Source: Blautia argi (GTDB lineage Bacteria; Bacillota; Clostridia; Lachnospirales; Lachnospiraceae). From it: a stretch of 64,000 nucleotides of DNA. Positions 23,368 through 38,456 of this stretch are shown here, piece after piece (the first letter of the stretch is position 1; each line of letters opens with the position of its first letter). The stretch covers positions 226,001 through 290,000 of the forward strand of contig NZ_CP030280.1 in NCBI RefSeq assembly GCF_003287895.1, in the 5' to 3' direction. The notes under the pieces were generated by a model. It searched no databases. It was not told the DNA's origin and worked only from the letters and a program-made list of their open reading frames with translations. The position numbers and the translations under genes are program-made.

Positions 23368-24620
23368 ATGGAAAATGAACCGATTTTATATGTCAACATG
23401 CTGGGAAAGTTTTCTATGAGCTATAACGGCCAGCCAGTATCCTTTAAGCGTAATACAGCAACCAATGCCATGAAACTGCTGCAGATACTTCTGCATGCCA
23501 CCGGAATGCAAGGGGGGGGTATCCCCGACCCCAGCTTTGGGAAGAACTTTTCGGAAGAGAAGATTTAGCCAATGTGGCAAACAACCTGAGGGTAACAGTA
23601 CACCGATTAAAGAAAATGCTGTCAGATACCTGCCTTCCTGAATATGAATATATTCATATAGAGAAGGGGCTTTATAAATGGGAGAGTCCGATTCCTCTGT
23701 ATATTGATGCATTGGAATTCGCAAAACTGGTAGAGCAGGCAAAAAATGAAACAGAGAAGGAGAAAAGAGCAAAGCTTCTTTTAGAGGCCTGCAGGCTGTA
23801 TCGGGGCGAATTTCTTCCCGGTTTGTCAGGGGAGGACTGGGTCATTGTACTCAGTGTTCAGTATAAAAAACTTTATGCTTATGCAATGACAGAGATATGT
23901 GAATATCTGAAGGAACAAAAAGAGTATGAAACAATCCTGGAACTGACTCGTACAGCGGTGGAGATTTATCCCTTTGACGAGTACCAGACCTATAGAATAG
24001 ATGCCCTGATAGCATTAAATCGTTATAAAGAGGCACATGACTATTATGAAGAAACGTCAAAAATGTTCTTTGAAGAATTGGGGATTACGCCTTCAGAGAA
24101 AATGATGAACCAGTTTCACGAGATGAGCAGCAAAATGAGCCGGAAATACCAGGACGCAGAGGAGATTAAAGAAGGGCTGAAAGAAAAGAGCTACGAAAAC
24201 GGCGCTTTTTATGTTCAGTTACCCAGCTTTCGTGACAGCTACCGCCTGGTAAGGAGGCTGATTGAGAGAAACGGGCGTTCCGTTTTTCTGATGATTTGTT
24301 CCATTACAGACCGGCAGGGAAGACCCATGGAAAGCAGAGAAAAGCTGGAAGTATTGTCCAATAATCTTCATAAAGCCATTAAAGGTTCTTTGCGTCGGGG
24401 TGATTTCTTTACCAAATACAGTCCTTCTCAGTTTTTAATTATGCTGGTAGGTACAAACAGGGAAAACTGCGATATTATTTATGACCGGATTTTGGGCAGA
24501 TTTGCAGAAAATCATAAAACATGGAAACAGAACCTGCAGTATTACGTTTCTTCCGTAGCCGATACGGAGAGCAGTAATTCGCACATTCGGTTTCAAGAGA
24601 AGGAATCTTACTGGAAATAG
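23368..24620 (+). pseudogene. SARP/BTAD-type transcriptional activator, out of frame at a G8 tract
   Basis: Two frames make one protein of about 415 residues. The first 48 residues (YVNMLGKFSMSYNGQPVSF, NAMKLLQILLHA) begin an OmpR-like winged helix of SARP regulators. After the run of eight G at 23512-23519 the second frame continues the helix (PQLWEELFGREDLANVANN, LRVTVHRLKKML), followed by the BTAD tetratricopeptide domain (EACRLYRGEFLPGL, YPFDEYQTYRIDALI) and a C-terminal GGDEF-like degenerate region. Six or nine G would restore the frame; eight or seven would not. It lies upstream of the matrix operon in the same direction and is its likely activator, so G-tract slippage could switch it on or off. 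Confidence 0.72.
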
Positions 24621-24642: not shown

Positions 24643-25092
24643 ATGAAACAGATGAACCTTGGACTTGCGGCTCCGAATCTGGTCTGTATTTGTGTAGACA
24701 ATGTAAAGGACAATCGAATAGAAGGAAGAATTTATCATTATTATACAGAGCAACCGGAAATCATAAAAGACACCATGCAGTTATTGCGGATTCTGGAAGC
24801 GTTTTATGACCGGATTGATTTTCCGCAGGCGGCAGAGCAGCTTCGGGAATTTGTGAATGATTCCGCTGAAGTGAAAAGGAGAAAACAACTGCCAAAACCT
24901 GTAAAAGACAGAGAATTTCTGATGAAACAGGATGGAGAATGCGGAACCTTTTTGCTGCATGTGCAGTATCGCCAAAATGCCACCTGGCAGGGGCAGATCA
25001 TGTGGAAGGAGAGAGGAAAAACTCTGGAATTTCGCAGCGCTTTGGAATTGCTGGTGCTTTTGGACAATGCATTGGCTGCTTATAAAGAATAA
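24643..25092 (+). CDS. Unknown protein with C-terminal RQNATWQG domain
   Basis: 149 residues, no signal peptide or membrane helix. I do not recognise the family. The N-terminal half is charged and helical. The C-terminal ~50 residues (GTFLLHVQYRQNATWQG ... FRSALELLVLLDNAL) are strikingly like almost the whole small protein at 26089. The domain alternates predicted beta strands with a final helix. It starts 22 bp after the SARP gene with GGAACAGGAG before the ATG, so it is probably cotranscribed with the regulator. The position on both sides of the regulator/operon boundary suggests a role in controlling or assembling the matrix system; this is inference. Confidence 0.6.
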   Translation: MKQMNLGLAAPNLVCICVDNVKDNRIEGRIYHYYTEQPEIIKDTMQLLRILEAFYDRIDFPQAAEQLREFVNDSAEVKRRKQLPKPVKDREFLMKQDGECGTFLLHVQYRQNATWQGQIMWKERGKTLEFRSALELLVLLDNALAAYKE

Positions 25093-25186: not shown

Positions 25187-25897
25187 TTATCTGGCAGCTA
25201 ACATATTTTCCCGGATTTTTTCAATCTGTTCTCTGGTTAAGCCGGTAGTCCGCATAATCAATATGGTATCAAGTCCATCTTTCATCAAATTCTCGGCAAT
25301 CGCTATTTTTTCGTTTTGTCTGGCAAGATTTATAGCTTCCTGCTTTTCTTCCTCTAAAATCTGAAATACCTTCGTCATACTCAAATACCTCCTTACTGTC
25401 TTTGCATAAGCTCGGTCTATAAACTTATCACTACTTACTAAAATACCCGTAATAACAAATGCCTGTATGTTTTCATTTTCAATCTGTTTTGCTAATTCCA
25501 CAACCTGTTCCATTTTCAATGTCAGGCATGGCATTTCCCAGGTATCCTTTGCATTTTCTACATCTCCCGTATATATTACAATCATACGCAATTTAGGGAT
25601 TTTCTTCTTTTGCGAATCGTATCGCTGCATAATTCTGCCAATGTAGTTGATATACTTTACGCGATTAGAAACTTTATCTTCTGACTCGTAATCTACGATA
25701 GCCAGTGTATCATCTTCCAGTAAAAACAAATTATCGATACGCATTTCGTTTGCAGACACTGCCGGTAAATTTGTTGGCAATACCTCTTTAATCTTTGGTA
25801 GGTTCAAGCCATAAGCCTCAAAGGATTTTTCCTTATAAGTTTCACTCATCAGCTTAAATTCAATATCTTTGTTTTGGTATACAATTCCTTCGGACAA
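25187..25897 (-). CDS. Rpn-family (recombination-promoting) PD-(D/E)XK nuclease-like protein
   Basis: 236 residues. The TTG start at 25897 is preceded by AAAGGAAG. The core RIDNLFLLEDDTLAIVDYES carries the D...E-x acidic pattern of the Rpn/PDDEXK_2 fold, though the usual lysine after the second acid is not obvious. The C-terminus has coiled-coil character (ILEEEKQEAINLARQNEKI) with a TGLTREQIEKI tail, seen in many Lachnospiraceae Rpn copies. Relatives promote RecA-independent recombination and are often horizontally spread. It is inserted between the SARP block and the matrix operon and transcribed against both. Confidence 0.7.
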   Translation of the reverse strand: MSEGIVYQNKDIEFKLMSETYKEKSFEAYGLNLPKIKEVLPTNLPAVSANEMRIDNLFLLEDDTLAIVDYESEDKVSNRVKYINYIGRIMQRYDSQKKKIPKLRMIVIYTGDVENAKDTWEMPCLTLKMEQVVELAKQIENENIQAFVITGILVSSDKFIDRAYAKTVRRYLSMTKVFQILEEEKQEAINLARQNEKIAIAENLMKDGLDTILIMRTTGLTREQIEKIRENMLAAR

Positions 25898-26006: not shown

Positions 26007-26088
26007 GCTTGTAATGCTTTTCGTAATGGTGCTTTTATTACAATAGGTACATCAAATGAAAGAAAACAAGAAGGAGGTGCGGACAGAC

Positions 26089-26304
26089 ATGAAACACTCT
26101 GTAACAAAGGACGGAGCTGTTTTCTTGCTGGAGATTCAGCACAGACAGAATGCCACCTGGCAGGGGTCCATTACATGGGTAGACAGACAGAATAAGCAAT
26201 ATTTCCGCAGCGCTCTGGAATTAATAAAGCTTATAGACAGCGCATTAGATCAAAGCGTTGAAGAAGAAAGGGAAGGAGAAGAAAGCGGATATGAAGAAGA
26301 ATAG
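26089..26304 (+). CDS. Small RQNATWQG-domain protein, first gene of the matrix operon
   Basis: 71 residues from the ATG at 26089, chosen because AAGGAGGTG lies 10 nt upstream; an in-frame ATG at 26056 has none. The sequence is essentially one copy of the domain at the end of the 24643 gene: FLLEIQHRQNATWQG, then FRSALELIKLIDSAL and an acidic tail. No signal peptide, so it stays in the cytoplasm. Its stop overlaps the start of the adhesin gene, indicating translational coupling. The function is unknown. Confidence 0.65.
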   Translation: MKHSVTKDGAVFLLEIQHRQNATWQGSITWVDRQNKQYFRSALELIKLIDSALDQSVEEEREGEESGYEEE

Positions 26305-29300
26305 CAGAGTGAGAAGATGGCTTGCCATGATTTTATGTATGACACTCGTTCTGAGCAGTAATGTCGTATCCATGGCAGCAGAAGAAAACGGAACAGAAGT
26401 ACAGGCAGTAACGGAAGAGCCTGTAATTGAGGAAACAGAACCGGCAGCAGTTGATGAGGCAGTTCCGGCAGATATAACGGAAACGGAACCAACGGAAACG
26501 CCGGTAACACCGGTAACAGAAACCGAACCAACAGGGGAATCGGAAACAGAGCCAGAAACAAAGACAGAAACAGTTACAGAGCCGGAAAAAACGGAAGTTC
26601 CGGAAAATCAGGAAACCACAAATCCTGAAGAAGTGGAAAAACCTGTGACATTTGCAGCACCTCAGGCACCGCAAGTACAGGAAGGACCGGGGGCTGGAGA
26701 TGCAACAGACGATAGGATAGGAGTAGAGGCATCAGTGCTAAAAAGTTTCGACTATCCACCATATTTGTCAAGTCAGAATCAGCAGGTCTACTCTCATTTG
26801 GCAAAAAAAGACTATGATATGCGTTACGATGGAAACAAATGGATATGTTGTTGGTTTGATGATAATAGAGATAATATAGCGGAAGTTGTGGGACCAAGAA
26901 ATAAACACTATATTGTTATAGATGATACTTGGGATGCATCGAACGATCCTTACAAAATTGCTTATATGAGATGTGATATGTATGGCGGCGAAGAACAAGA
27001 AAAAATATATTATCCCGTATTTTTCATAGATGAGGAAGGAAAAACCCTATTAAAAGAAGATAATGGAAGATTTTTGGGAGAGTGTGGAAAAAGGCAAAAA
27101 CCCGACAAAAACACCTGACAAGACGAATGGCTATTGGACTCTTGGACAATATAGTGGAGGATTGATTAATAAAGAGGAACAGTTACAGCAGGTAACTGAT
27201 ACAGAAAATAAAGTAGATCCTTCAAAAGCAAAAATCACAACTCAGACTGTCTTCATCTGGCACGAAAACCCAGCTGAAACATACAAATTGGAATTCACAA
27301 AAGTTTCCGAAGAAAAAGACACTGACGGAAACTACAAGCCACTGAAAGATGCAGAGTTTGAATTATTTTTAAATGGAGAATCCCAAGGAACAGCAACAAG
27401 TGGTACAGACGGAACAGTTACCTTTGCTGACCTTGCACCTGATACCTACACATTAAAAGAAACAAAAGCACCAGATAATTACATAACACCAGAAAACACT
27501 TGGAGTGTAACAGTCGGAAATGATGGTAGCATTACTATAGAAGGTGATAACGTAGAGGTAGATTCAGCGGGAAAATATAAAATTATCAATCAACTTCAAA
27601 AAGGAACCTTGGCTTTTACAAAAATAGAGAAAGGTGGTTCTGCATTATCAGGAGCAACATTTACTTTGTATGATAGCGAAGGTGAAAAAACCGGGTATGA
27701 AGATACTTCTGATGCAGATGGACAGGTAACTATTGAAAATATTCCTTTAGGAACATACACAATGAAAGAAACAGACGCTCCGGGAGGATATATTCAGTCA
27801 ACGGATACATGGGTTGTTGAGGTGACGAAAGATAAAGTCCTGCTTTATTTACAAGGGGATGAAAGTAAAGCTCCAGTATCTGTTATCGAAAACATTACTG
27901 AACACCAGGCAATGGAAGACGCTGTAGAGCGTGATAAAAAGGTTGAAGTTGTTGATGAGGATAACAGAACTTATAAGATTACGCTGACAGCAGATTCTAC
28001 AACTAAGACTTCAGAAATAACGGGAAAGAATGCAAGCGTGGTATTGATCTTAGATGAAAGTAGTTCTATGGATGGAGATTCATTTAGGAGTTTAAAGGCG
28101 GCAGCAAGATCCTTTGTAGAGAGCCTGGGAGAACAAGCACCAGGCAGTGAAGTGGCTGTAATGTTCTTTTCAGATGAGGTTACATGTACTGATTTCTTTA
28201 CGTTAGATAAAGAGGGGATTTCAGCTTTAAATAGGAAAATTGGAAGTCATAATAGAAAAGGCGGAAATACTTACATGAATAGAGCTCTTGCTAAAGCAGA
28301 TGAGCTTTTGAAAAATAAGACAAACGAAAAATATGTGGTATTTTTTACAGACGGAGAACCTCAAGGACCTGGAGAAGGACAGACGGCTGGGCAAAGAACA
28401 GAAGATAATACAATTGCCAACGGAGCACGAAATGCAGCAGCTAGAATAAAAGAATATGGAACTATCTTTTCAGTAGGATATGGAGATGTTAAAGATGCTG
28501 AATTTTGGTGGAACCCCAATGATGGAAATGCTATATGGAACGAGAGGTGGAGTGACAGAACAGCTAAATATTATGGTTGGACATATGAAAGTGCAACATC
28601 TTATCTAAGTAATAGAATTTCATCAGAAGGCAAGTATCAGTATGCCAATACAGATGCAGCAATTACGGACATTTTCAATGATATAGCAGGTCATATTGCA
28701 GAAGCCACAAATGTAGAGGCACATAAAATCGTAGATGTCATTGACAGCAGATTTGAGTTAGCAGATGGTGAGAAAGAAAGACTGCAAGAAAAATATGGTC
28801 AAGATATTTCTTTTAAGGAGTTACCTGACGGCAGTTTGAAAATCGCATGGACAGGTAAGGCGGCGGTTATAGAACCAAAACCAGACTCAGAAAATCCAGG
28901 CGCTCATGGATGGAAGGAAACTATTAACATCCAGGCAAAAGATGATTTTGTGGGTGGAAATATGATTCCGACAAATGGTTCAGGTTCAGGAATCTATGTT
29001 GATGAAGATGATACGATAGACGTAGAATTCCAGAAGCCAACAGTCAATGTGAAATTACTTACCGTAGAAGCTGAAAACAAAGAAAAAACAGTATTTCTTG
29101 GTGATACAATTACAGTAACTGCATTTCTTCAGGAATTGCTGAAAGGAACGAAGCTAAATCAAGTTTCTGGTGGAACGTTTAGCATACCTGCAGGTTACGT
29201 GCCATCGCAAGATGAAATTGCATCTCTTTTGCAAGGAAGTGTTGTAGAAAAGGATTATAGTTATGGTAGTACAAACGATACAGTAGGAAAGTTTACATAC

Positions 29301-30020
29301 AAGTTTGTACCTGTAAAACTGCAAGATACTTCAGTTCAAGACCATGAGGCTACTGTGATAGGCAACGGTGTAGAGGAATACAAGTTGACGGTTGCTTACG
29401 AAGCAAGTTCTGTAGAGAACAGAAAATCATCTTTAGAAGGTTATATTTCACCGGAAGGAGCTGAGCAGTCTAAGTCAACAGACGATGGAATATACACAGT
29501 GAACGTAATTGCCGGAGAGATTCAGATTACCAAAAAGATTGACGGTAATTTCCAGCCTAAATTAGAAGGTGATCCAATATTTACCTTTAAAATTGAGAAA
29601 TTAGACGAAGGTGATAAGGTTGAAAAAACCTGGTACAGAACCGTTCGTTTTAACAAAAATACCGTGAAAGAACAAACAGTTGAAGCGTTAAGCGGATTGG
29701 AAAAAGGTGACTATAGGGTTACAGAGTTGAAATCTCAAAGATATACGTTAGATAAAAATCAAACAACTACCGAAGGTAGCACATGTACAGATACTCCATA
29801 TGAAGATGGTGACGGGGTTGTATTCCATATCGGAACACCATCTGAAAACGACGAGGTTGGCGCTAGAGGTGTTGCCAAATTTGTCAACACAAAAACCGGT
29901 GACAGCGGAAAGAGAACAGACACAGATGTAAGAGTAAACCGTTTCACAAAGGAAAATGGTAAGTGGACATGGAAAGGTTATGACCTTTCTACATCAAAAC
30001 CAACAAGTAATCAGCAGTAA
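26291..30020 (+). pseudogene. Secreted vWA / SpaA-domain adhesin, one frameshift
   Basis: The ATG at 26291 follows GGAAGGAG. A signal peptide (WLAMILCMTLVLSSNVVSMA) is followed by a Glu/Thr/Pro-rich stretch and a 150-residue domain. A +1 frameshift then occurs; dropping one T from the T5 at 27071 gives NGRFWESVEKGKNP and a continuous protein of about 1240 residues. Next come two SpaA domains (DAEFELFLNGE, GATFTLYDSEGE), a von Willebrand A domain with a complete MIDAS (DESSSM, GGNTYM, FFTDGEPQ), and two further beta domains. The C-terminus has neither a sortase signal nor a membrane helix, so it is secreted or built into a fibre. It leads the TasA/SipW genes and is likely the tip adhesin. Confidence 0.8.
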
Positions 30021-30037
30021 GCAGAAAGGAGAAGAAA

Positions 30038-30580
30038 ATGAAAAAATTCAAATTTAATAAAAATAAAAAGTCATTTATCCTATCTCTGCTGCTGCTGGCA
30101 GCAGTGGTGGGAACGGCAGGAACAGTAGCCCTTGCTGTTGGTAAATCAAATAAGGTAATTAATACCTTCCAGGCTGCGGATAATAACACCGGAATTGACG
30201 AAGGTGACGGGGGAGAACCCAAAAATAAAGTAGTATCTATTAAGAATGAATCAGAAAAAGACAAAGCCTTTATCCGGGCAAGAGTTACCGTTTCCCCTGA
30301 AGGAGCATGTAAGGTAGATACTTCAAGAGCAGAATCCTGGGAATATTGCAAAGAAGATGGATTTTACTATTATCTTAAAGCTGTTGCACCAAAAGGCAAA
30401 ACTACAGAACTTTTTAACGGTGTAACACCATCTGACGATTTCAAAGGTGATACGTTTGACGTAACCGTGTATGAAGAATCCTGTGTAGCAAATGTTTCTT
30501 CAAATAAAGATCTGGATATAAACACAGTAAAAGCAGCTTTTGATAAAGCTGAAAAGAGCGGGACTGTTGAAGTCAAATAA
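30038..30580 (+). CDS. TasA/CalY-like SipW-dependent secreted protein 1
   Basis: 180 residues. The signal region (SFILSLLLLAAVVGTAGTVA) resembles SipW substrates. The following domain has the camelysin/TasA pattern of KVVSIKNESEKDKAFIRARV and DGFYYYLKAVAPKGKTTELF, where a structural beta strand precedes a W/Y-rich motif. It is 17 bp after the adhesin and 22 bp before the first SipW gene, with AAAGGAG. It is probably a fibre subunit or fibre anchor exported and processed by SipW. Confidence 0.65.
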   Translation: MKKFKFNKNKKSFILSLLLLAAVVGTAGTVALAVGKSNKVINTFQAADNNTGIDEGDGGEPKNKVVSIKNESEKDKAFIRARVTVSPEGACKVDTSRAESWEYCKEDGFYYYLKAVAPKGKTTELFNGVTPSDDFKGDTFDVTVYEESCVANVSSNKDLDINTVKAAFDKAEKSGTVEVK

Positions 30581-30602
30581 AGGGCGAGAGGAAGATTACT
30601 AG

Positions 30603-31136
30603 ATGTTAAAAAAAATATGTGGCTTCTTATCAGGAATCCTTTTAATCGTACTTGCGGCACTTGCCGGAATCCTGATTATCCCCAAGGTTATGGGATATGA
30701 GGAAATGGCAGTTTTGACCGGAAGTATGGAACCAAAGTATCCGGTAGGTTCTCTGATATTTGTCAAAGAAGAAAATCCGGAAAAGCTGCAAGTCGGAGAT
30801 GTCATTACTTACCGGCTTAGCGGAGATACCGTAGTAACCCACAGAGTTGTGGAGATTAACAAAGACGAACAGTCTGTAGTAACAAAAGGTGATGCCAATG
30901 AATCCAATGACGGAAGCCCTATTCCATATAATAACATTATCGGAAAAGCACATTTCTGTGTTCCATATTTAGGATTCATCAGCATGAATATAAAGACCCC
31001 TAAAGGTATTATAGGAATATGTGGCTTACTCGTTGTGATTATCCTATTGACCTTTATCCCGGAAATCTTCTCGAACGATGAGGAAGAAGACGGGAAAGAA
31101 AAAGCCAAAAAGGCAAAAAAGAGTAAAGGAGAATAA
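30603..31136 (+). CDS. sipW: SipW-type signal peptidase I (first copy)
   Basis: 177 residues with an N-terminal and a C-terminal membrane helix. The catalytic serine is Ser41 in LTGSMEPKYPVGS. The second active residue is His80 in VVTHRVVE instead of the lysine of ordinary bacterial enzymes, so this is the ER/SipW type. The box TKGDANESND is also present. SipW processes TasA-family matrix proteins. The Lys-rich cytoplasmic tail ends 4 bp before the next TasA-like gene. Confidence 0.88.
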   Translation: MLKKICGFLSGILLIVLAALAGILIIPKVMGYEEMAVLTGSMEPKYPVGSLIFVKEENPEKLQVGDVITYRLSGDTVVTHRVVEINKDEQSVVTKGDANESNDGSPIPYNNIIGKAHFCVPYLGFISMNIKTPKGIIGICGLLVVIILLTFIPEIFSNDEEEDGKEKAKKAKKSKGE

Positions 31137-31140
31137 AGTT

Positions 31141-31875
31141 ATGACAAAGAAAAAATTAATGATGGCAGGTTTATCAGCAGGTTTAGTAGCAGTTGTAGGT
31201 GTAGGTGGAACATTAGCTTATTTATCAGCACAGTCTGATGTAGTAAACAATGCTTTTACAGTAGGACAGGGATATACACCAGATAAAGACGGACATACAG
31301 GACTGTTCCTTGATGAAACAGATTACGATTACAATCCGGATACTAAAAAGAATGAGGACACAGGGAAACGTACAGAAGAAGGAAATACATACGAGAATTT
31401 GTATCCGGGTAACAGCCTTACAAAGGACCCTAAAGTTACTATGATTGGTGGTTCTGTAGAATCGTATGTATTTGTAAAAGTAGATGGTGTAACAGAGTTG
31501 GAAGCCATCACAGCACCGGAAACAAATGACAAAGTATTTGATATTGCAGATTGGTCAACAAGCAGTTGGGTTAAATTAGACGAAAAAGGTGTTATGACTC
31601 CGGGAAAAGAAGGCGATGGATACTATGTATATATGGGACAGATGGCAACCGATGGTGTTGTAGATGTATCCTTAAAAACAGAGGGTGAACATATTCAGTT
31701 ACCGGAACAGGTATTTAATACTATCAAGGTAAACAATGTAAACGCACTTCCAGAAAATACTGCTGTTAAAACTCAGAAAGTAAGCGTAAAAGCATGTGCA
31801 GTACAGGCAACAGAACACAGACAGGGAATCGAGGCTGCGTTTGCTCAGGCAAAAGGTGAATTAGATCAGCAGTAA
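31141..31875 (+). CDS. TasA-like SipW-dependent secreted protein 2
   Basis: 244 residues from the ATG at 31141 (AAAGGAG 9 nt upstream); the frame is open further back into sipW but without a ribosome site. The signal LSAGLVAVVGVGGTLAYLSA has the LAY(L/F) cleavage region of SipW substrates. The mature part shows ENLYPGNSLTKDPKVTM and VESYVFVKV, the TasA-type 'N/PGxxxxKDPxVxN' strand pattern, and ends with KACAVQATEH. It is a predicted matrix-fibre subunit. Confidence 0.75.
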   Translation: MTKKKLMMAGLSAGLVAVVGVGGTLAYLSAQSDVVNNAFTVGQGYTPDKDGHTGLFLDETDYDYNPDTKKNEDTGKRTEEGNTYENLYPGNSLTKDPKVTMIGGSVESYVFVKVDGVTELEAITAPETNDKVFDIADWSTSSWVKLDEKGVMTPGKEGDGYYVYMGQMATDGVVDVSLKTEGEHIQLPEQVFNTIKVNNVNALPENTAVKTQKVSVKACAVQATEHRQGIEAAFAQAKGELDQQ

Positions 31876-31916
31876 TATCAAAATAAAAGAAATATAGATA
31901 TAGGAGGATATGGGGT

Positions 31917-32615
31917 ATGAAGAAAAGACAGTTGGCAAAATTAGGTTTAACATTAGGTTTAGTTGGAGCAGTTGGTGTAGGCGGAACAATGGCATTATTG
32001 TCAGCAAAGTCTAATACAGTAACAAACACTTTCGCAGCAGGAAACGGTATTGATGCAGCAAAGGATATCACATTATTTGAGCATGACCCATATCTTGATG
32101 AAGAAGGATATCAAGGTGATAGCCAGAATGTGTTTAAGGATGGTACATCTACAGACAAAGAAGGAATGATTGATATAGATGGTGTAGATTACAAGGATTT
32201 GGAACCTAATATGGTACTTACTAAAGACCCAACGGTACAGATTTCTAAAGGTACAGCAGACTGTTATCTGTTTGCAAAAGTAACAAATGGTCTGAAAGAT
32301 GTCAAGGGAGTAAGCATTGACGGTATTTTTTCCAACACTAGTGAACACTGGCAGAAGTTAGAAGGCACAGAAGATGTTTGGTATTATGTTGATTCAATAA
32401 AAGATGTAGATGGAAAAGTAATTAATACTGATGAGGAAGCATTTATTTCTGATGAATTATTTGAAAATATTACGCTTACCTCTGATGCAGAGATTTATGA
32501 CAATAAATTAGAAAACAAAAATATTGAAGTCAAAGCCTTTGTAGTGCAGGCAACAGAAAATAATAACTGGGAAGCTGCTAAAGCAATGGCGAAGGATAAT
32601 GACAATTGGGAATAA
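31917..32615 (+). CDS. TasA-like SipW-dependent secreted protein 3
   Basis: 232 residues, close relative of the preceding protein. Its signal is LGLTLGLVGAVGVGGTMALL and the mature part has YKDLEPNMVLTKDPTVQI, DCYLFAKV and a C-terminal EVKAFVVQATENNNW. TAGGAGGAT lies just before the ATG. The tandem arrangement points to duplication, giving alternative fibre subunits. Confidence 0.75.
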   Translation: MKKRQLAKLGLTLGLVGAVGVGGTMALLSAKSNTVTNTFAAGNGIDAAKDITLFEHDPYLDEEGYQGDSQNVFKDGTSTDKEGMIDIDGVDYKDLEPNMVLTKDPTVQISKGTADCYLFAKVTNGLKDVKGVSIDGIFSNTSEHWQKLEGTEDVWYYVDSIKDVDGKVINTDEEAFISDELFENITLTSDAEIYDNKLENKNIEVKAFVVQATENNNWEAAKAMAKDNDNWE

Positions 32616-32644
32616 GTATTGACTGAGTAAGGAGAACATGAATC

Positions 32645-33301
32645 ATGAAAAATAAAAAAGTATTAATGGCAGCAGCATCAACCGCATTAGTAGCAGTAGT
32701 GGGAATCGGAGCAACACTGGCATATTTCACAGACCAGGCGGATACAGAAAATGTAGTGACTATGGGTCATGTAGACGTTCGTTTAGTAGAACATGAAGTA
32801 AAAAAAGATAACAACGGTAAGTCTTATGTGACAGACAATACAAAGCCTGTAACAGAGAAAGGACTGGTATTTGAAGACGTTTATCCAGGAGAAACTCTTC
32901 CAAAAGATCCGACTATCGAATTAGTTTCCGGATCCGGTGATGCATATGTAAGAATGAAAATGGAAATTGATACTTCCAAAACTACAATTGATGCAGATGA
33001 TGTAGCTGCATTAAGAGAGAATATTAATAATGAAATTGAGAAAAGCGGTGACTGGTATTACAACGCAGAAGAAGATTTTTATTACTACAATGCACCTTTG
33101 ACAGAGGAAAGCAATACAGCTACATTATTTACACAGGTAACAATTCCAGGAGAAGAATGGACAAACAACACAGCAGACCAGACTTTTTCTATCAAACTTC
33201 AGGCAGAAGCTATTCAGGAAGAATATTTTACACCTGAAAGAGAGGGAGATATGATTACAAGCTGGGGTGGTGTTACAACAGAAACATATGATGCTCAGTA
33301 G
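32645..33301 (+). CDS. TasA-like SipW-dependent secreted protein 4
   Basis: 218 residues with the most classical SipW signal of the set: STALVAVVGIGATLAYFTD, in which LAYFTD is the hallmark. The mature part has VYPGETLPKDPTIELVSGSG, DAYVRMKMEID, and a C-terminal LQAEAIQEEYF. It ends 58 bp before the second SipW gene. Confidence 0.8.
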   Translation: MKNKKVLMAAASTALVAVVGIGATLAYFTDQADTENVVTMGHVDVRLVEHEVKKDNNGKSYVTDNTKPVTEKGLVFEDVYPGETLPKDPTIELVSGSGDAYVRMKMEIDTSKTTIDADDVAALRENINNEIEKSGDWYYNAEEDFYYYNAPLTEESNTATLFTQVTIPGEEWTNNTADQTFSIKLQAEAIQEEYFTPEREGDMITSWGGVTTETYDAQ

Positions 33302-33359
33302 GTAGAACAGGTTACGTACGAATAATGGAGTCAACTAAGCAGCAAAGGAGGATTTCCCA

Positions 33360-33857
33360 TTGCTTTCAAAAATTTTAAACTACATAGGAATCTTTTTGAT
33401 GGCAGTGGTAATCCTCCTGGTTCTGCCGCTTACCCTACCGAAATTATTCGGGATTCACATATTCGGTGTCCTTACAGGGAGTATGGAACCAGAGTATCCC
33501 GTAGGATGTGCCGTATATGTCAAAGAAATAGATTTTGAAGAAATAAAAACAGGGGACCCCATTACCTATCGTTTGGGGACAGACACAGATTTAGTTGCAA
33601 CTCACAGAGTTGTAGAGATAGATTCCGAACAGCAGGCCTTCATCACCAAGGGAGATGCCAATCAGTCCGCAGATGTCGATGCGGTTTCTTATTCTCAGGT
33701 GGTGGGAAAAGTGGTATTTCAGATACCATTGCTGGGAAGGCTTTCTGCCTGTCTGCATACAAAAACAGGAGTGCTTGCCTGCGGAGGAGTTTTCGCAGCA
33801 GCCATGGTTCTTTGGGTGCTGGCAGAGAAGATGAAGGTAAAGGAGAGTGCGAAGTGA
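33360..33857 (+). CDS. SipW-type signal peptidase I (second copy)
   Basis: 165 residues, TTG start at 33360 with AAAGGAGG upstream. Ser41 in LTGSMEPEYPVGC and His82 in VATHRVVEID are the catalytic pair, and TKGDANQSAD is conserved. It has the same layout as the first copy but diverged sequence, suggesting that each peptidase serves different TasA-like substrates. Its TGA overlaps the GTG start of the next gene. Confidence 0.88.
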   Translation: MLSKILNYIGIFLMAVVILLVLPLTLPKLFGIHIFGVLTGSMEPEYPVGCAVYVKEIDFEEIKTGDPITYRLGTDTDLVATHRVVEIDSEQQAFITKGDANQSADVDAVSYSQVVGKVVFQIPLLGRLSACLHTKTGVLACGGVFAAAMVLWVLAEKMKVKESAK

Positions 33858-34504
33858 AAAAGAGAATATTACTTATGGGCGTGGCAGCCGCTCTCACAAC
33901 AACAGCAATAGTCGGGGGATCTCTGGCATATTTTCAGGCAGATGGAAGAAATGTCCAGCAGCAAATCAGTACAAGGACATTGGGAATCAGCCTGACAGAT
34001 GCCCAGTCAGGGGAGCTGCCGGAGGATTCGATTCTTTTAAAAGGTGCCATGCCAGGTGAAGAGATTAACTTGGAAAATAAACTTGTTGTGACAAATACAG
34101 GAGATACTCCTTTATATACCAGAGTAACCGTGAGCAAATGCTGGGGCAGCTATGAAAATGCTTCTTTTAAGAAGGAGTTTGATAAGGATAGCGAAGCAAT
34201 TAAGCTGGTGCCAAACAGTGACTGGTATATAATGGAGAATACAGAGGAAAATGACGAAAATTTGTATCTGTATTACAGGGCTCCATTAGAAGTGTCAGGT
34301 CAGACGTCTTCCATACTGGAGGGACTTGAGATTGCCAAAACACTGACCAACGAGTATGCAGATAAAGGAATTCAGTTGAATGTAGAAGTAGACGCAGTGC
34401 AGGCTTCTGAATCTGAAGCGGCAAGACAGGACGCAATTCTGGCAGAATGGGGTGTCTGGGCTGAATTTGATGGAGATGGAAACATTCTCGGGATAGAAGA
34501 ATAA
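33854..34504 (+). CDS. TasA-like SipW-dependent secreted protein 5
   Basis: 217 residues from the GTG at 33854, which overlaps the sipW stop (GTGA) and follows AAGGAGAG. The signal LTTTAIVGGSLAYFQADG is SipW-like. The mature part has GAMPGEEINLENKLVVTNTG, DTPLYTRVTVSK and DWYIME, then a C-terminal VDAVQASE. Translational coupling to the second SipW gene makes it that enzyme's most likely substrate. Confidence 0.75.
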   Translation: MKKRILLMGVAAALTTTAIVGGSLAYFQADGRNVQQQISTRTLGISLTDAQSGELPEDSILLKGAMPGEEINLENKLVVTNTGDTPLYTRVTVSKCWGSYENASFKKEFDKDSEAIKLVPNSDWYIMENTEENDENLYLYYRAPLEVSGQTSSILEGLEIAKTLTNEYADKGIQLNVEVDAVQASESEAARQDAILAEWGVWAEFDGDGNILGIEE

Positions 34505-34532
34505 TGGACGTTGTGCAGGAGGTAGAGAAGAA

Positions 34533-35321
34533 ATGAAAAAATTAATGACAGTTTTCTGCATGATTCTCACAATGGTCTTCGGAACGTCCATGGGAGTCTT
34601 TGCAGCAGAAACACCCACCGTTACTTTTGACGGAAGCGAAGAGCTGAAATACAATTACAGCGATACAGCAAATTTTGGAGACGCCTTTGTAGGGATTCTT
34701 CCGGGAGATGAGAGAACACAGGAAATTATTCTGGAGAACACTTCTGACAGAGCCATGGATTTTTATATGGAGGTTGAAGTACTCCGGGCATTAGAAGAAG
34801 CAACACAGGCTTCTGATGCAGCATATCAGTTTTCTCTCAGCGTTACCCAGGAGGGTGTCAATGGTGGAGAACCGCAGATGATTTACGGAGGCGGCGCGGA
34901 AAGCCAGGCATGGATTGGCGGGGATAAGGAAGGTCTTGCCAATATCAATGAAGTGCTGGAGCAGTACGGAGAAAGAGGATTAAAGGTAGCAACCCTGGAG
35001 CCGGGCCAGCAGGCAGTCATTTCTCTTTCCGCTATGCTGGACGGAATGACAGGAGGAAATACCTATCAGGACGTACAGGGTACTTTCCAGTTTGCGTTCC
35101 ATGCAAGTGATGACACACCGGATCCGGTTACAGAAGAAGTGAAGGGAAAAGACAAGGTGGTTAAAAAGACGGTAAAAGAAGCCGACAAGACGGTTGTGCG
35201 AAAGGTGAAGACCGGAGATACCACCGCACTCCTGCCGGTTTTGGCATTGTTAGGAGTCAGTGTTCTGGTGATTCTTGTAGTTCTTTTTATTAACAAAAAC
35301 AAAAAGAAATCAAAAATGTAA
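34533..35321 (+). CDS. Sortase-type anchored surface protein of the matrix operon
   Basis: 262 residues. A conventional signal peptide (VFCMILTMVFGTSMGVFAAE) is followed by a beta-rich domain with LPGDERTQEIILENTSDRAM, reminiscent of an NxA/late-competence type Ig domain. Then come a Lys/Val/Asp linker, the sortase-like signal VKTGD, a hydrophobic helix and KNKKKSK. It could be the wall anchor for the fibres made by the preceding genes. CAGGAGGT precedes the ATG. No intact sortase gene lies in the window. Confidence 0.7.
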   Translation: MKKLMTVFCMILTMVFGTSMGVFAAETPTVTFDGSEELKYNYSDTANFGDAFVGILPGDERTQEIILENTSDRAMDFYMEVEVLRALEEATQASDAAYQFSLSVTQEGVNGGEPQMIYGGGAESQAWIGGDKEGLANINEVLEQYGERGLKVATLEPGQQAVISLSAMLDGMTGGNTYQDVQGTFQFAFHASDDTPDPVTEEVKGKDKVVKKTVKEADKTVVRKVKTGDTTALLPVLALLGVSVLVILVVLFINKNKKKSKM

Positions 35322-35390
35322 TTCTTTTGTTAATGCTTAAGGAAGTATAATGGATACAGAAAACAGGACACAGAAAGGCAGGAAACCCAT

Positions 35391-36440
35391 ATGAAGAAAA
35401 AGAAAATGGTTCATATAGCTGCGGCTGTTTGTACAGGAATGCTTTTAAGTGCAACACCGGTACTGGCAGCAGCAGATACAGCAGAATATACCGTAACCCT
35501 GCGTCCGGGAAGCATTGCACAGTTCAGTGAGGAATTTATAAATGCCTATGTAAATACATATGGAGCAAAGGTTACAGAAACGACGGGCAGTATTAAAGTG
35601 AAACTCAGCCCGGGGGAATCCATTCCCATGCTGCCGGATGACGGAGATTTGGTATATAAGGACAGCGCCAAAGGCCGTTATACGATGAATACAGACTGGT
35701 ATCCGGATACCAATGTGGTGACAGGAAATGAAAGTTTTGTAGTGAAATATGACGCCCTGGTAAATGCAGTAGAATACAAGGTGCGTTACGTGGACAGCCA
35801 GAGTGGGGAAGATGTGGCGCCTCCGGTTATTACACAGGGAAATGCGGGACAGAGCTATACTTATTACAGCCAGCAGATTGCAGATTATGTCTGTGATGTG
35901 GCAAGTCAGACACTTACCCTGGCGGAAACCGGTGACAATGTGATTACTTTTGAATATACAAGCACAAGAGAACCGCAAGTAAACCGTGTAGAAGTCCCGG
36001 GTGATACTGTTGTACAGGAGGAGAGGGTTCCCGGAACCACAACTGTTGTGAACCAGACAACTACAGCAGGAACCACAACCGGCAACCAGACCGGAACAAC
36101 CGGAAATCAGACAACAGGTACAACTGGTGATACAACAGCGAACAATGCTGCCGGAAACGCAGCAGCAGGAACAACAGAAGACACCACAGCGGGAACAGAA
36201 ACCATTGAAGGGGAAGATGTTCCTCTGGGACAGGTAGATTTAGGCGGGGAAGATGGAGAAACAGCCGATGGCGCTGAGGATTCTGAAACCGCTGAAATCG
36301 AAGAGGAAGAAGTTCCCCTTGGACAGAAGGATATGGAAGAAGAAGGCGGAAGCGCACTTCCATGGGTTGCAGGCGGAGCAGCAGTTGTTGCCGCCGGAGC
36401 AGGTGCAGGCTGGTATTTTTACAGAAAACGTAAATCATAA
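35391..36440 (+). CDS. MucBP-domain surface protein with C-terminal membrane anchor
   Basis: 349 residues: signal peptide (AAAVCTGMLLSATPVLAA), a beta domain, and a MucBP-type repeat (VEYKVRYVDSQSGEDVAPP, then AGQSYTYYS). A Thr/Asn/Gly-rich low-complexity stalk follows, then two copies of an acidic E-x-V-P-L-G-Q motif and a transmembrane helix ending YRKRKS. There is no LPxTG, so it is membrane-held. MucBP domains bind mucin or act as stalk repeats. It is the last gene of the operon, before a terminator. Confidence 0.72.
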   Translation: MKKKKMVHIAAAVCTGMLLSATPVLAAADTAEYTVTLRPGSIAQFSEEFINAYVNTYGAKVTETTGSIKVKLSPGESIPMLPDDGDLVYKDSAKGRYTMNTDWYPDTNVVTGNESFVVKYDALVNAVEYKVRYVDSQSGEDVAPPVITQGNAGQSYTYYSQQIADYVCDVASQTLTLAETGDNVITFEYTSTREPQVNRVEVPGDTVVQEERVPGTTTVVNQTTTAGTTTGNQTGTTGNQTTGTTGDTTANNAAGNAAAGTTEDTTAGTETIEGEDVPLGQVDLGGEDGETADGAEDSETAEIEEEEVPLGQKDMEEEGGSALPWVAGGAAVVAAGAGAGWYFYRKRKS

Positions 36441-36470: not shown

Positions 36471-36522
36471 GACCAAATAGAAGAGGACTCGCAGGACAGA
36501 GAAATCTTCTGTTTGGTTTTTT
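36471..36522 (+). terminator. Terminator of the matrix operon
   Basis: ACCAAATAGAAGA pairs with TCTTCTGTTTGGT (one mismatch), followed by TTTTTTATT. Confidence 0.75.
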
Positions 36523-36536
36523 ATTGTTTTAAGTTG

Positions 36537-36565
36537 TTGATTTTTCGGGGGAATTTGTATACAAT
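36537..36565 (+). promoter_or_regulatory. Promoter of the diguanylate cyclase gene
   Basis: TTGATT, 17 nt, TACAAT, 34 nt before the start codon. It makes the cyclase a separate transcript from the matrix operon. Confidence 0.6.
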
Positions 36566-36599
36566 TCTTGGCAGAGAAACAGATTTTGGAGGACAAAAG

Positions 36600-38456
36600 A
36601 TGAAAAAGAAGACAGCATTGGTTTTTAGCGCTATGGCAGGGATTATCCTGGCGACAATGCTTGTATTTCAGTTGAATTTCCGCAGAGTATACGAGCTGAT
36701 TCTGGAAAAGGACATGGAACAGGTGGAAGACACCTCTAATTTTGTTACAGAGCTGCTGTATACAAAAATTCAGAATCTTTTTTCTGTATTAAGTTCAAAC
36801 CAGAAGATTTTCTGGGAGCATGAGGACGGAAATTTGGAAAGTGTTGTACAGAGGCTGAAAAAAATAAAGGAAGAGGAACGATTTGATACCATTGGCGTCA
36901 TGGATTTGCAGGGAAAGAGCATGGATGACTCCGGAGAGGGAAAGGTGATTACAGACACGCAATGGCTGGACAGCATAAGGAAAAACCAGAGGTATATATC
37001 CAACATTGAAGAGGTGTCTGACCGGATTTTATTGGCAGTTCCCATTGTGAAAAATGGCGAAGTCAGAGGCGCTATCTGGGGCTATTATTCTGTTGCGCTG
37101 ATTGCGGACGAGATTGAATTGTCAAAGGATTCGCACCGTTATTTTCAGATTGTTGACGACTCAGGTAAATATATCAGCGACTCAAATAACGTAAATTCTT
37201 TTGCAGAAAATATGAGTGTATGGGAGGAACTGCAGAGGTATGAACTTTCTGATGGCGTTACGGTTGAGGAAATTTATGAGAATATAGAACAGGGAAAAAC
37301 CGGCTATTTTCATTTTACATTTGAGGGGCAGGGACGTTATGTGACCTATGAGCCTTTGGGAATCAAGAACTGGTATGTATTTTCTGTGTTAACAGAGAAA
37401 TATCTGGGAAGCTATGTAACAGAGATAGAAAAGATTTTTTCCCGCATTCTGATGGGGACATTGGGGATTATTTTGTTGTCTATCGGAATTTTAGGATTTT
37501 TTGTATATAAGACCATGCGGTTGACAAAGGAGCAGAATGAGAGCCTGTTTTCTAAGAATAAGCTATTGTTTATGGCATTAAAGTATACAAAGGACATTCC
37601 GTTTGAAGTAGATATTGCCAAGAAAAGAGTGTCTATTTACAGCAATGAGGATTCCGGGAAAATGCTGGAACGGGATTTGGAAGAATTCACTCCTGAGTAT
37701 ATGCTGAAAAAAGATCTGATTGAGAAGAAACAGTACAGGGAGTATAAGGAGTTTTGCGAAAACATATTGTCGGGTAAACCCGTAAAGCCTGTGATTATAA
37801 AGATGAAAATGGGCGGAAAGTGGAATTATAACAGAATCAGCATGGAAATATTGAATCAAAACCATATAATTGGATTTTTGGAGGATTATAATGAACTGGT
37901 GCTGCAGAACAGACAGATTCAGGAAATCAGTGAGAAGGCACAGAGAGATGCTTTGACAGGGCTGTATTGCAGAGGGTATTTTGTGCAGGAAGTAGAAAAA
38001 ATTTTAACAACTGTTTCCTGCTCTCATAATGGAACCTGTTCTGCATTATTTTTGCTGGATTTGGATTGTTTTAAGCAGGCAAATGATACGCTGGGACATA
38101 TGCTGGGTGATCGGATATTAAAAGATACAGGGCGGATTCTGCACTCTGTGGTGCGCGGCAGCGATTTGGTAGGAAGGCTGGGCGGCGATGAGTTTGTGGT
38201 GTTTATCCGAGAGGCAAGGGATATCGCCGCTTTGCGAAAATGTGCAGAAAAGATAAATGCAGCACTGAAACGGACTTATGGAGAGGAGAAAACAGTTACA
38301 GTCAGCGCATCTATCGGAATTGCAGTATGGACAGGAGAACGGAGTTTTGCAGAGCTTTATAAAATGGCAGATACTGCACTTTATAAAGTGAAAGAAAGTG
38401 GCAAAGACGGATATAACCTTTTGTCCGGGAGCCATGTGGAAGAATCAGAAAAATAA
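36600..38456 (+). CDS. Membrane diguanylate cyclase with extracellular sensor
   Basis: 618 residues from the ATG at 36600 (TGGAGGAC upstream). One N-terminal helix, a ~260-residue extracellular Cache-like sensor, a second helix near residue 290 and a linker are followed by a C-terminal GGDEF domain. The catalytic GGDEF is intact at about residues 528-532 (RLGGDEFVVF). RGSD five residues before it is a complete inhibitory I-site. It should make cyclic di-GMP under an external signal, with product feedback. It sits directly after the matrix operon, and c-di-GMP commonly controls matrix production. Confidence 0.9.
   Translation: MKKKTALVFSAMAGIILATMLVFQLNFRRVYELILEKDMEQVEDTSNFVTELLYTKIQNLFSVLSSNQKIFWEHEDGNLESVVQRLKKIKEEERFDTIGVMDLQGKSMDDSGEGKVITDTQWLDSIRKNQRYISNIEEVSDRILLAVPIVKNGEVRGAIWGYYSVALIADEIELSKDSHRYFQIVDDSGKYISDSNNVNSFAENMSVWEELQRYELSDGVTVEEIYENIEQGKTGYFHFTFEGQGRYVTYEPLGIKNWYVFSVLTEKYLGSYVTEIEKIFSRILMGTLGIILLSIGILGFFVYKTMRLTKEQNESLFSKNKLLFMALKYTKDIPFEVDIAKKRVSIYSNEDSGKMLERDLEEFTPEYMLKKDLIEKKQYREYKEFCENILSGKPVKPVIIKMKMGGKWNYNRISMEILNQNHIIGFLEDYNELVLQNRQIQEISEKAQRDALTGLYCRGYFVQEVEKILTTVSCSHNGTCSALFLLDLDCFKQANDTLGHMLGDRILKDTGRILHSVVRGSDLVGRLGGDEFVVFIREARDIAALRKCAEKINAALKRTYGEEKTVTVSASIGIAVWTGERSFAELYKMADTALYKVKESGKDGYNLLSGSHVEESEK

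Follow-up and report, generated by a model that had tools for sequence, protein, structure and literature searches.

A candidate C-terminal donor-strand tail on a vWA adhesin and a proposed tip-to-base order in a TasA-like fibre operon of Blautia argi

How does a gut commensal hold a giant adhesin at its surface when the protein lacks a sorting signal? The question is raised by an operon of Blautia argi (assembly GCF_003287895.1, contig NZ_CP030280.1), which we analysed within a window of 64,000 nucleotides (226,001–290,000, forward strand; coordinates below are positions within that window). On the forward (+) strand, the operon encodes in order a vWA/SpaA adhesin, the protein TasA-like 1, the signal peptidase SipW-1, TasA-like 2 to 4, SipW-2, TasA-like 5, a TGD-anchored protein and a MucBP protein. 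The ten co-directional genes of an initial annotation, made from the sequence by eye, are borne out at about the coordinates given there, with gaps of 17, 22, 4, 41, 29, 58, −1, 28 and 69 bp from the second open reading frame (ORF) of the adhesin to the MucBP gene. This is a genuine operon, and an old one. We think it probable, on balance, that its product is a strand-exchange fibre in which tip and base are defined, the gene order running from tip to base. More tentatively, and with chances slightly below even, we propose that a C-terminal donor-strand tail serves as a non-covalent sorting signal in Lachnospiraceae, by which a vWA adhesin or an LPXTG-less basal pilin would dock in the first subunit's groove, with the last subunit and the TGD anchor tethering it to the wall.

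The five TasA-like secreted proteins all match TIGR04088, TIGR04090 or both, and their classes are homologous (hhalign, 99.9% for first versus shaft and 99.3% for last versus shaft). Three of the five pass the cut-off of 19 for TIGR04088, the SipW-type signal peptide: TasA-like 2 (31141–31875) with 26.6 bits, TasA-like 3 (31917–32615) with 20.1 bits and TasA-like 4 (32645–33301) with 38.2 bits, the last also matching PF12389 at 24.0 bits. TasA-like 1 (30038–30580) and TasA-like 5 (33857–34504) have no TIGR04088 match at E ≤ 0.1, and reach 30.5 and 34.2 bits with the BsaA model TIGR04090; as the latter value is the best in the window and the curated cut-off is 60, we do not file these subunits as BsaA. 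The two peptidases are confirmed as SipW-type. SipW-1 (30603–31136) and SipW-2 (33360–33857) score 119.2 and 90.8 bits with the endoplasmic reticulum-type signal peptidase model TIGR02228 (cut-off 51.85), and both carry GSMEP, THRV and TKGDAN, whose Ser, His and Asp residues we take to be catalytic; with the Bacillus SipW equivalog NF046067 they score 105.2 and 78.2 bits, below its 190. All three TIGR04088 matches of the whole 3.30-Mb genome, and both of its TIGR02228 matches over the cut-off (of four at E ≤ 0.001), lie within the operon.

For comparison we used 86 regions, the window and 85 others (L032–L116) chosen from SipW or adhesin matches; L133–L152 were added later from matches to a first-subunit profile. 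Neither choice was random, and several regions (L035, for example) contain no system of this kind. The counts over the 86 regions are 65 for TasA-like genes, 42 for the anchor with TGD, 28 for MucBP and 20 for a BTAD regulator. Fibre loci have shaft subunits between the first and the last, and pilus loci have none. On a tree built with 72 TasA-like proteins, which come from 11 fibre loci and 12 pilus loci, operon-position labels require six changes, against a minimum of five and an average of 37.6 for shuffled labels. The five proteins of the window are placed as one first, two shaft-b (TasA-like 2 and 3; clade 100/96), one shaft-d (TasA-like 4; 93/79) and one last. First subunits of fibre (10/11) and pilus loci (11/11) form one clade (95/90), as do the last subunits of both (99/92). 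A tree of 70 SipW sequences, whose bootstrap had not settled, separates a SipW-1 clade (91/81) and a SipW-2 clade (99/91) from the SipW of pilus loci (98/98).

Because the five TasA-like proteins and the two peptidases fall in position-specific clades common to other genera, they are not recent duplicates; the two trees reject a recent tandem duplication of the window's subunits or of its SipW genes, the latter with the bootstrap proviso just given. The subunits had been called alternatives to one another, which is less likely than that they occupy distinct conserved positions (first, shaft and last). Nor is the expansion of the set peculiar to this genome: L037, L041 and L050, from other genera of the family, also have two SipW genes, pairing one of the two window clades, or an unplaced SipW, with another, and have 7, 5 and 8 TasA-like genes, though both SipW clades were seen together only in the window and in L032, from the same genus. 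L050 (6410–11278) has six consecutive shaft-b subunits of two types that alternate; these are recent duplicates, whereas the set in the window is older.

The adhesin ends in TDTDVRVNRFTKENGKWTW, a segment that resembles the donor strands of TasA-like proteins. More generally, adhesins and basal pilins end in a stretch similar to the mature N-terminus of TasA-like subunits: F/Y, S/T, D/H, T and D, followed by V.N.F. We call the protein encoded just before a TasA-like gene its leader, and scored the last 70 residues of leaders with a matrix built solely from mature N-termini of TasA-like proteins of the first batch. Leaders score above control proteins in the discovery set (21 versus 368, p = 8e-10), in a first held-out set (22 versus 332, p = 5e-7) and in a second (10 versus 136, p = 8e-4). 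Against composition-preserving shuffles, 9 of 21 discovery leaders fall below 0.05 (Fisher 6e-13), compared with 8 of 150 controls; so do 4 of 8 in the second held-out set, for leaders of at least 450 residues without a sortase (Fisher 9e-5). The strict pattern V.N.[FI], which misses the window tail, is found in the last 60 residues of 7/21 and 7/22 leaders versus 13/368 and 9/332 controls. The flanking columns match by position when the N/F core is excluded (22 hand-picked tails, column permutation p = 0.0016), at least four of these tails (L032, L060, L061 and L070) being in the wrong register and left uncorrected. The leaders of L036, L067, L088, L100 and L108 look like no adhesins and were kept in the tests. 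A sorting-like C-terminus occurs in 1 of 43 leaders, the 283-residue protein of L036, which we regard as chance.

Relatives of the C-terminal part of the adhesin, counted over the best 120 of 375, separate by how they end. One pattern gave 77 with LPXTG (three of them also with the tail), 27 with the tail only and 16 with neither. As that pattern misses TDTDVR[VL]NRF, unique tails were recounted with another: the motif TDTD..N.F or [DHS]TDV is present in none of 12 tails with LPXTG and in 30 of 39 without. The nine motif-less tails among the latter include two with TSTDTIVNRY, several that look truncated, and P0239 with MPASGG. Among these unique tails, the donor-like segment and LPXTG are mutually exclusive, and the window adhesin itself has no LPXTG or other sorting signal at its C-terminus. 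An AlphaFold model of an artificial chain, joining the adhesin tail of L049 to the first subunit, is consistent with docking of the tail: tail residues 31–40 and 41–50 have a mean predicted local distance difference test (pLDDT) of 94 and 90 and form predicted strands at 28–39 and 45–50, while the N-strand region of the subunit itself lies almost wholly below 50.

A similar tail appears in sibling loci on the basal pilin of sortase pili. A sortase is encoded within four genes upstream of the leader in 12 of 43 cases, with two LPXTG-type proteins there as well in 11 of the 12. In L033, for instance, a 1601-residue vWA protein ending in LPSAGG and a 489-residue SpaH/EbpB-like pilin accompany two sortases, of which one was scanned and lies over the class C cut-off. 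The leader of a pilus locus is a basal pilin of 322–427 residues without LPXTG (with DUF5979 in two that were scanned). The usual order after it is first subunit, last subunit, anchor, MucBP protein and SipW, one or more of which some regions lack. The first and last subunits are orthologous to those of fibre loci. Since a basal pilin with the tail would plug into an orthologous first subunit, strand exchange would anchor sortase pili as well.

At the other end of the operon, the anchor (34533–35321) has an ordinary Sec signal (by eye), a VKTGD motif, a hydrophobic transmembrane stretch and the basic tail KNKKKSKM, and is predicted to be cleaved by a sortase. It had been described as anchored in the sortase manner; a TGD motif with a transmembrane segment is there, and a canonical LPXTG is not. 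TGD is present in 34 of 37 members of the anchor family, and the match to NF053819 (21) is below the cut-off of 47. TasA is the best match of the predicted structure (top Protein Data Bank entries 5of2, 5of1 and 8aur), with alignments beginning at TasA residue 39, 33 or 43. The TasA donor strand spans residues 28–38, according to the available part of PMC9674648, and the anchor is thus modelled as a TasA fold without most or all of that strand. In a search of the anchor profile against the same structure database, a SecY match at 0.005 covers the transmembrane part. None of the genome's five sortase matches lies in the window, the nearest being about 95 kb from the operon. The MucBP membrane protein (35391–36440) was named correctly, with PF06458 at its cut-off (23.0 bits) and a C-terminal transmembrane segment and basic tail by eye, and its gene adjoins the anchor gene in many relatives. 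Three regions from other Clostridia families (L121, L128 and L129) have a sortase gene as the immediate neighbour of the TGD anchor gene, and the sortases of L121 and L129 fall just under the class C cut-off. This arrangement suggests which kind of sortase the window's genome must supply from elsewhere.

Taken together, these features would fit the following course of assembly. SipW-1 and SipW-2, possibly each with a specificity of its own, would free the N-termini of the TasA-like subunits, and the freed N-terminal strand of one subunit would fill the groove of the next, as in Bacillus TasA; such polymerization would be expected from the motif and from that precedent. The C-terminal segment of the adhesin would mimic such a strand and occupy the first subunit's groove, so that the vWA protein would come to sit at the distal tip with no need of a sortase. 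From there the shaft subunits would extend the chain as far as the last subunit, and the N-strand of the latter would fill the groove of the anchor. The strandless TasA-fold anchor could only accept, and a sortase encoded elsewhere would fix it to the wall. In Bacillus, each TasA subunit donates its N-strand to its neighbour, and the first strand can come from TapA (available parts of PMC9674648 and PMC10151520); here the adhesin would play the part of TapA, from its C-terminus. The fibre with a vWA tip and a wall tether put forward in the initial annotation remains the best reading, on evidence beyond that available to it: the position clades, the tail and the anchor fold.

Whether this isolate makes such a tip is another matter. 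The very large adhesin (26291–30020) has vWA and SpaA domains over the Pfam cut-offs, as had been proposed, but is not one reading frame: 26291–27118 encodes 275 residues with a signal peptide (by eye) and 27063–30020 encodes 985 residues with the SpaA, vWA and C-terminal parts. The halves, aligned separately to an undivided 1242-residue relative (P0121, 78 member sequences), are 97% (264/273) and 98% (959/982) identical. Most of the 23 differences in the second ORF cluster in the vWA domain (window about 28000–28260; P0121 residues 575–650), perhaps through ligand or antigenic variation. The BTAD/SARP-type regulator upstream (23368–24620, with a GGDEF match below cut-off) is likewise split, into 23368–23568 and 23574–24620, around a run of eight G (23512–23519) that is possibly a phase-variation switch or a sequencing error; its undivided relatives include P0245 (432 residues, 93% identical) and a 447-residue orthologue in L032. 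In L032, both genes are whole, and the order is BTAD regulator, 158-residue protein, 65-residue protein, 1527-residue adhesin, TasA-like, SipW, two TasA-like, SipW, TasA-like, anchor and MucBP. With adhesin and regulator both in two frames, either there are two lesions in this isolate or the sequence reflects phase variation or misassembly. There is an even chance that the system is off here, by decay, phase variation or assembly error, with only subunits and anchor made, and this would be compatible with any reading of the fibre. Two separate frameshifts in one functional unit, one of them at a homopolymer, and the existence of longer undivided relatives of both genes speak for it, whereas the other ten operon genes, the 82-residue one included, are open, and the assembly is a single 3.30-Mb contig of 99.96% completeness. 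The fibre tip may be absent in this genome, unless the frameshifts are assembly errors.

Several results weigh against a tip-to-base fibre with a donor-strand tail. The window tail, by eye a clear TDTDVRVNRFT, is alone not significant (score 4.1, shuffle p = 0.13), and that of L032 scores 0.8 (p = 0.18). In the flank-column test, a one-residue shift gives 0.946, compared with 0.889 at register 0. The first held-out set is weak under the shuffle test (3/22 below 0.05, Fisher 0.028), and by our own reading 12 of its 22 leaders belong to the pilus type, whose GxGVxNxF tail is shorter, and another 6 are not adhesins. The second held-out set includes L133 and L134, which are related to L078 and L037. 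No signal is given by four leaders from other families (p = 0.98), though none is adhesin-like. One of the 11 fibre first subunits (L037) lies outside the first clade. The structural model for an orthologue of the first subunit shows a beta-sandwich, with TasA not among the matches listed. The anchor is weakly related to the shaft class (hhalign 80%, 37 columns) and moderately to the last class (92%). The chain modelled from L049 is artificial, with three further alignment rows like such chains.

These points leave some room for an ordinary TasA/BsaA-type matrix operon with loose fibres and a separately secreted adhesin, the likeness of the tails then reflecting the N/T/D/V-rich composition of extracellular Clostridial proteins. 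BsaA of C. perfringens polymerizes independently of BsaB, BsaC and srtB, according to the available part of PMC7395162, and in 16 regions from other Clostridia families no adhesin was seen directly before a TasA-like gene. We nevertheless consider this unlikely: composition is controlled for in the shuffle test, which the discovery and second held-out sets pass, no unique tail of an adhesin relative combines the donor-like motif with LPXTG, and orthologous first subunits follow a tail-bearing protein in fibre and pilus loci alike. It is highly improbable that the shared segment is instead a SipW recognition or secretion signal, with SipW or the translocon binding the adhesin tail so that export is ordered. 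The segment does directly follow the SipW-type signal peptide in precursors, and TIGR04088 matches run into it. On the other side, structures of Bacillus TasA show this segment as the donor strand (available part of PMC9674648), the adhesin tail is C-terminal and far from the signal peptide, and, as indirect evidence, in the AlphaFold chain the tail is predicted with high confidence together with the subunit domain.

The preferred strand-exchange fibre can be set beside the closest known systems. Like Bacillus tapA-sipW-tasA and TasA-CalY, the operon combines a SipW-type peptidase, TasA-like subunits, a putative N-terminal donor strand and a proposed counterpart to the accessory first-strand protein TapA (available parts of PMC9674648 and PMC10151520); TasA-CalY heterofilaments with CapP are described for B. 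cereus in the available part of PMC13082335. Unlike in Bacillus, a giant vWA adhesin is the proposed donor, by way of its C-terminus, the two SipW genes belong to separate clades, five subunits stand in conserved positions, and the predicted TasA-fold anchor has a sortase-type motif. The sipW-bsaABCRSD locus of C. perfringens is alike in its SipW, BsaA polymer and accessory secreted proteins; it has a two-component regulator in place of BTAD, and no vWA adhesin is mentioned in the available part of PMC7395162. With SpaA/Ebp-type sortase pili the window shares a vWA/SpaA tip-like protein, for which LPSTGG is the ending of vWA relatives about 40% identical; in L033 a protein of this kind stands beside a class C sortase and a SpaH/EbpB-like pilin. 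The window locus has no sortase, no backbone pilin and no LPXTG on its adhesin, and its shaft would consist of TasA-like subunits instead. In titles and abstract openings among the matches listed from open-licence PMC, a vWA adhesin or a sortase pilus joined to TasA was not found. In comparison with Gram-negative chaperone-usher pili and archaeal bundling pili, no chaperone or usher was seen in the window locus, and the logic would be the opposite of the Gram-negative order, with the tip protein as donor and the base as acceptor.

The annotated start at 26089 lies within a separate 82-residue gene (26056–26304), the last 14 bp of which are shared with the beginning of the adhesin gene (26291). 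This protein is a stand-alone orphan domain, RQNATWQG...FRSALEL, that also forms the C-terminus of a 149-residue protein (24643–25092), for which neither a Pfam family over cut-off nor a match in NCBIfam was found. The domain, RQNATWQGxIxW...FRSALELIKLIDSAL, adjoins BTAD regulators and in some loci directly precedes adhesin or SipW genes; it counts at least 30 sequences among the matches listed (also in L033, L041, L050, L081, L133 and L152), matches nothing in NCBIfam for four sequences tested, and perhaps has a regulatory role. Between the regulator genes and the operon lies an opposite-strand gene (25187–25897, −) with no counterpart there in L032 and no Pfam family over cut-off, presumably for an Rpn-type nuclease. 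Downstream, a dCache-GGDEF protein (36513–38456, +; likely start 36600) is perhaps a unit of its own. A scan of the window gave 41 promoter-like and 14 terminator-like sites, near the shuffle expectations of 37.4 and 10.1. Genes resembling those of type IV pili or type II secretion (PilC-, PilT- and pseudopilin-like by eye) adjoin several operons (L032 353–4257, L051 2092–6068 and L068 11248–12348).

Within the family, 94 of 299 genomes have TIGR02228 over cut-off and 83 of 397 match the first-subunit profile at 1e-8, a profile that also catches shaft subunits; at class level, 14 of 196 genomes, the window's included, have TIGR04088. A BTAD regulator is present in five (L119, L120, L121, L128 and L129) of the 16 regions from other families. 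TasA-like 4 found one weak locus among genome contigs, a plasmid search (near mode) gave no match, and a sequence search with four class profiles against the structure database found no TasA.

How Gram-positive gut commensals display their adhesins is poorly known. If the proposal is true, TasA-like fibres would gain a tip, a shaft and a base, the missing sorting signal of the vWA protein would be explained, the five subunits and two peptidases would each be given a position, and sortase and strand-exchange pilus technologies would be joined by one plug.

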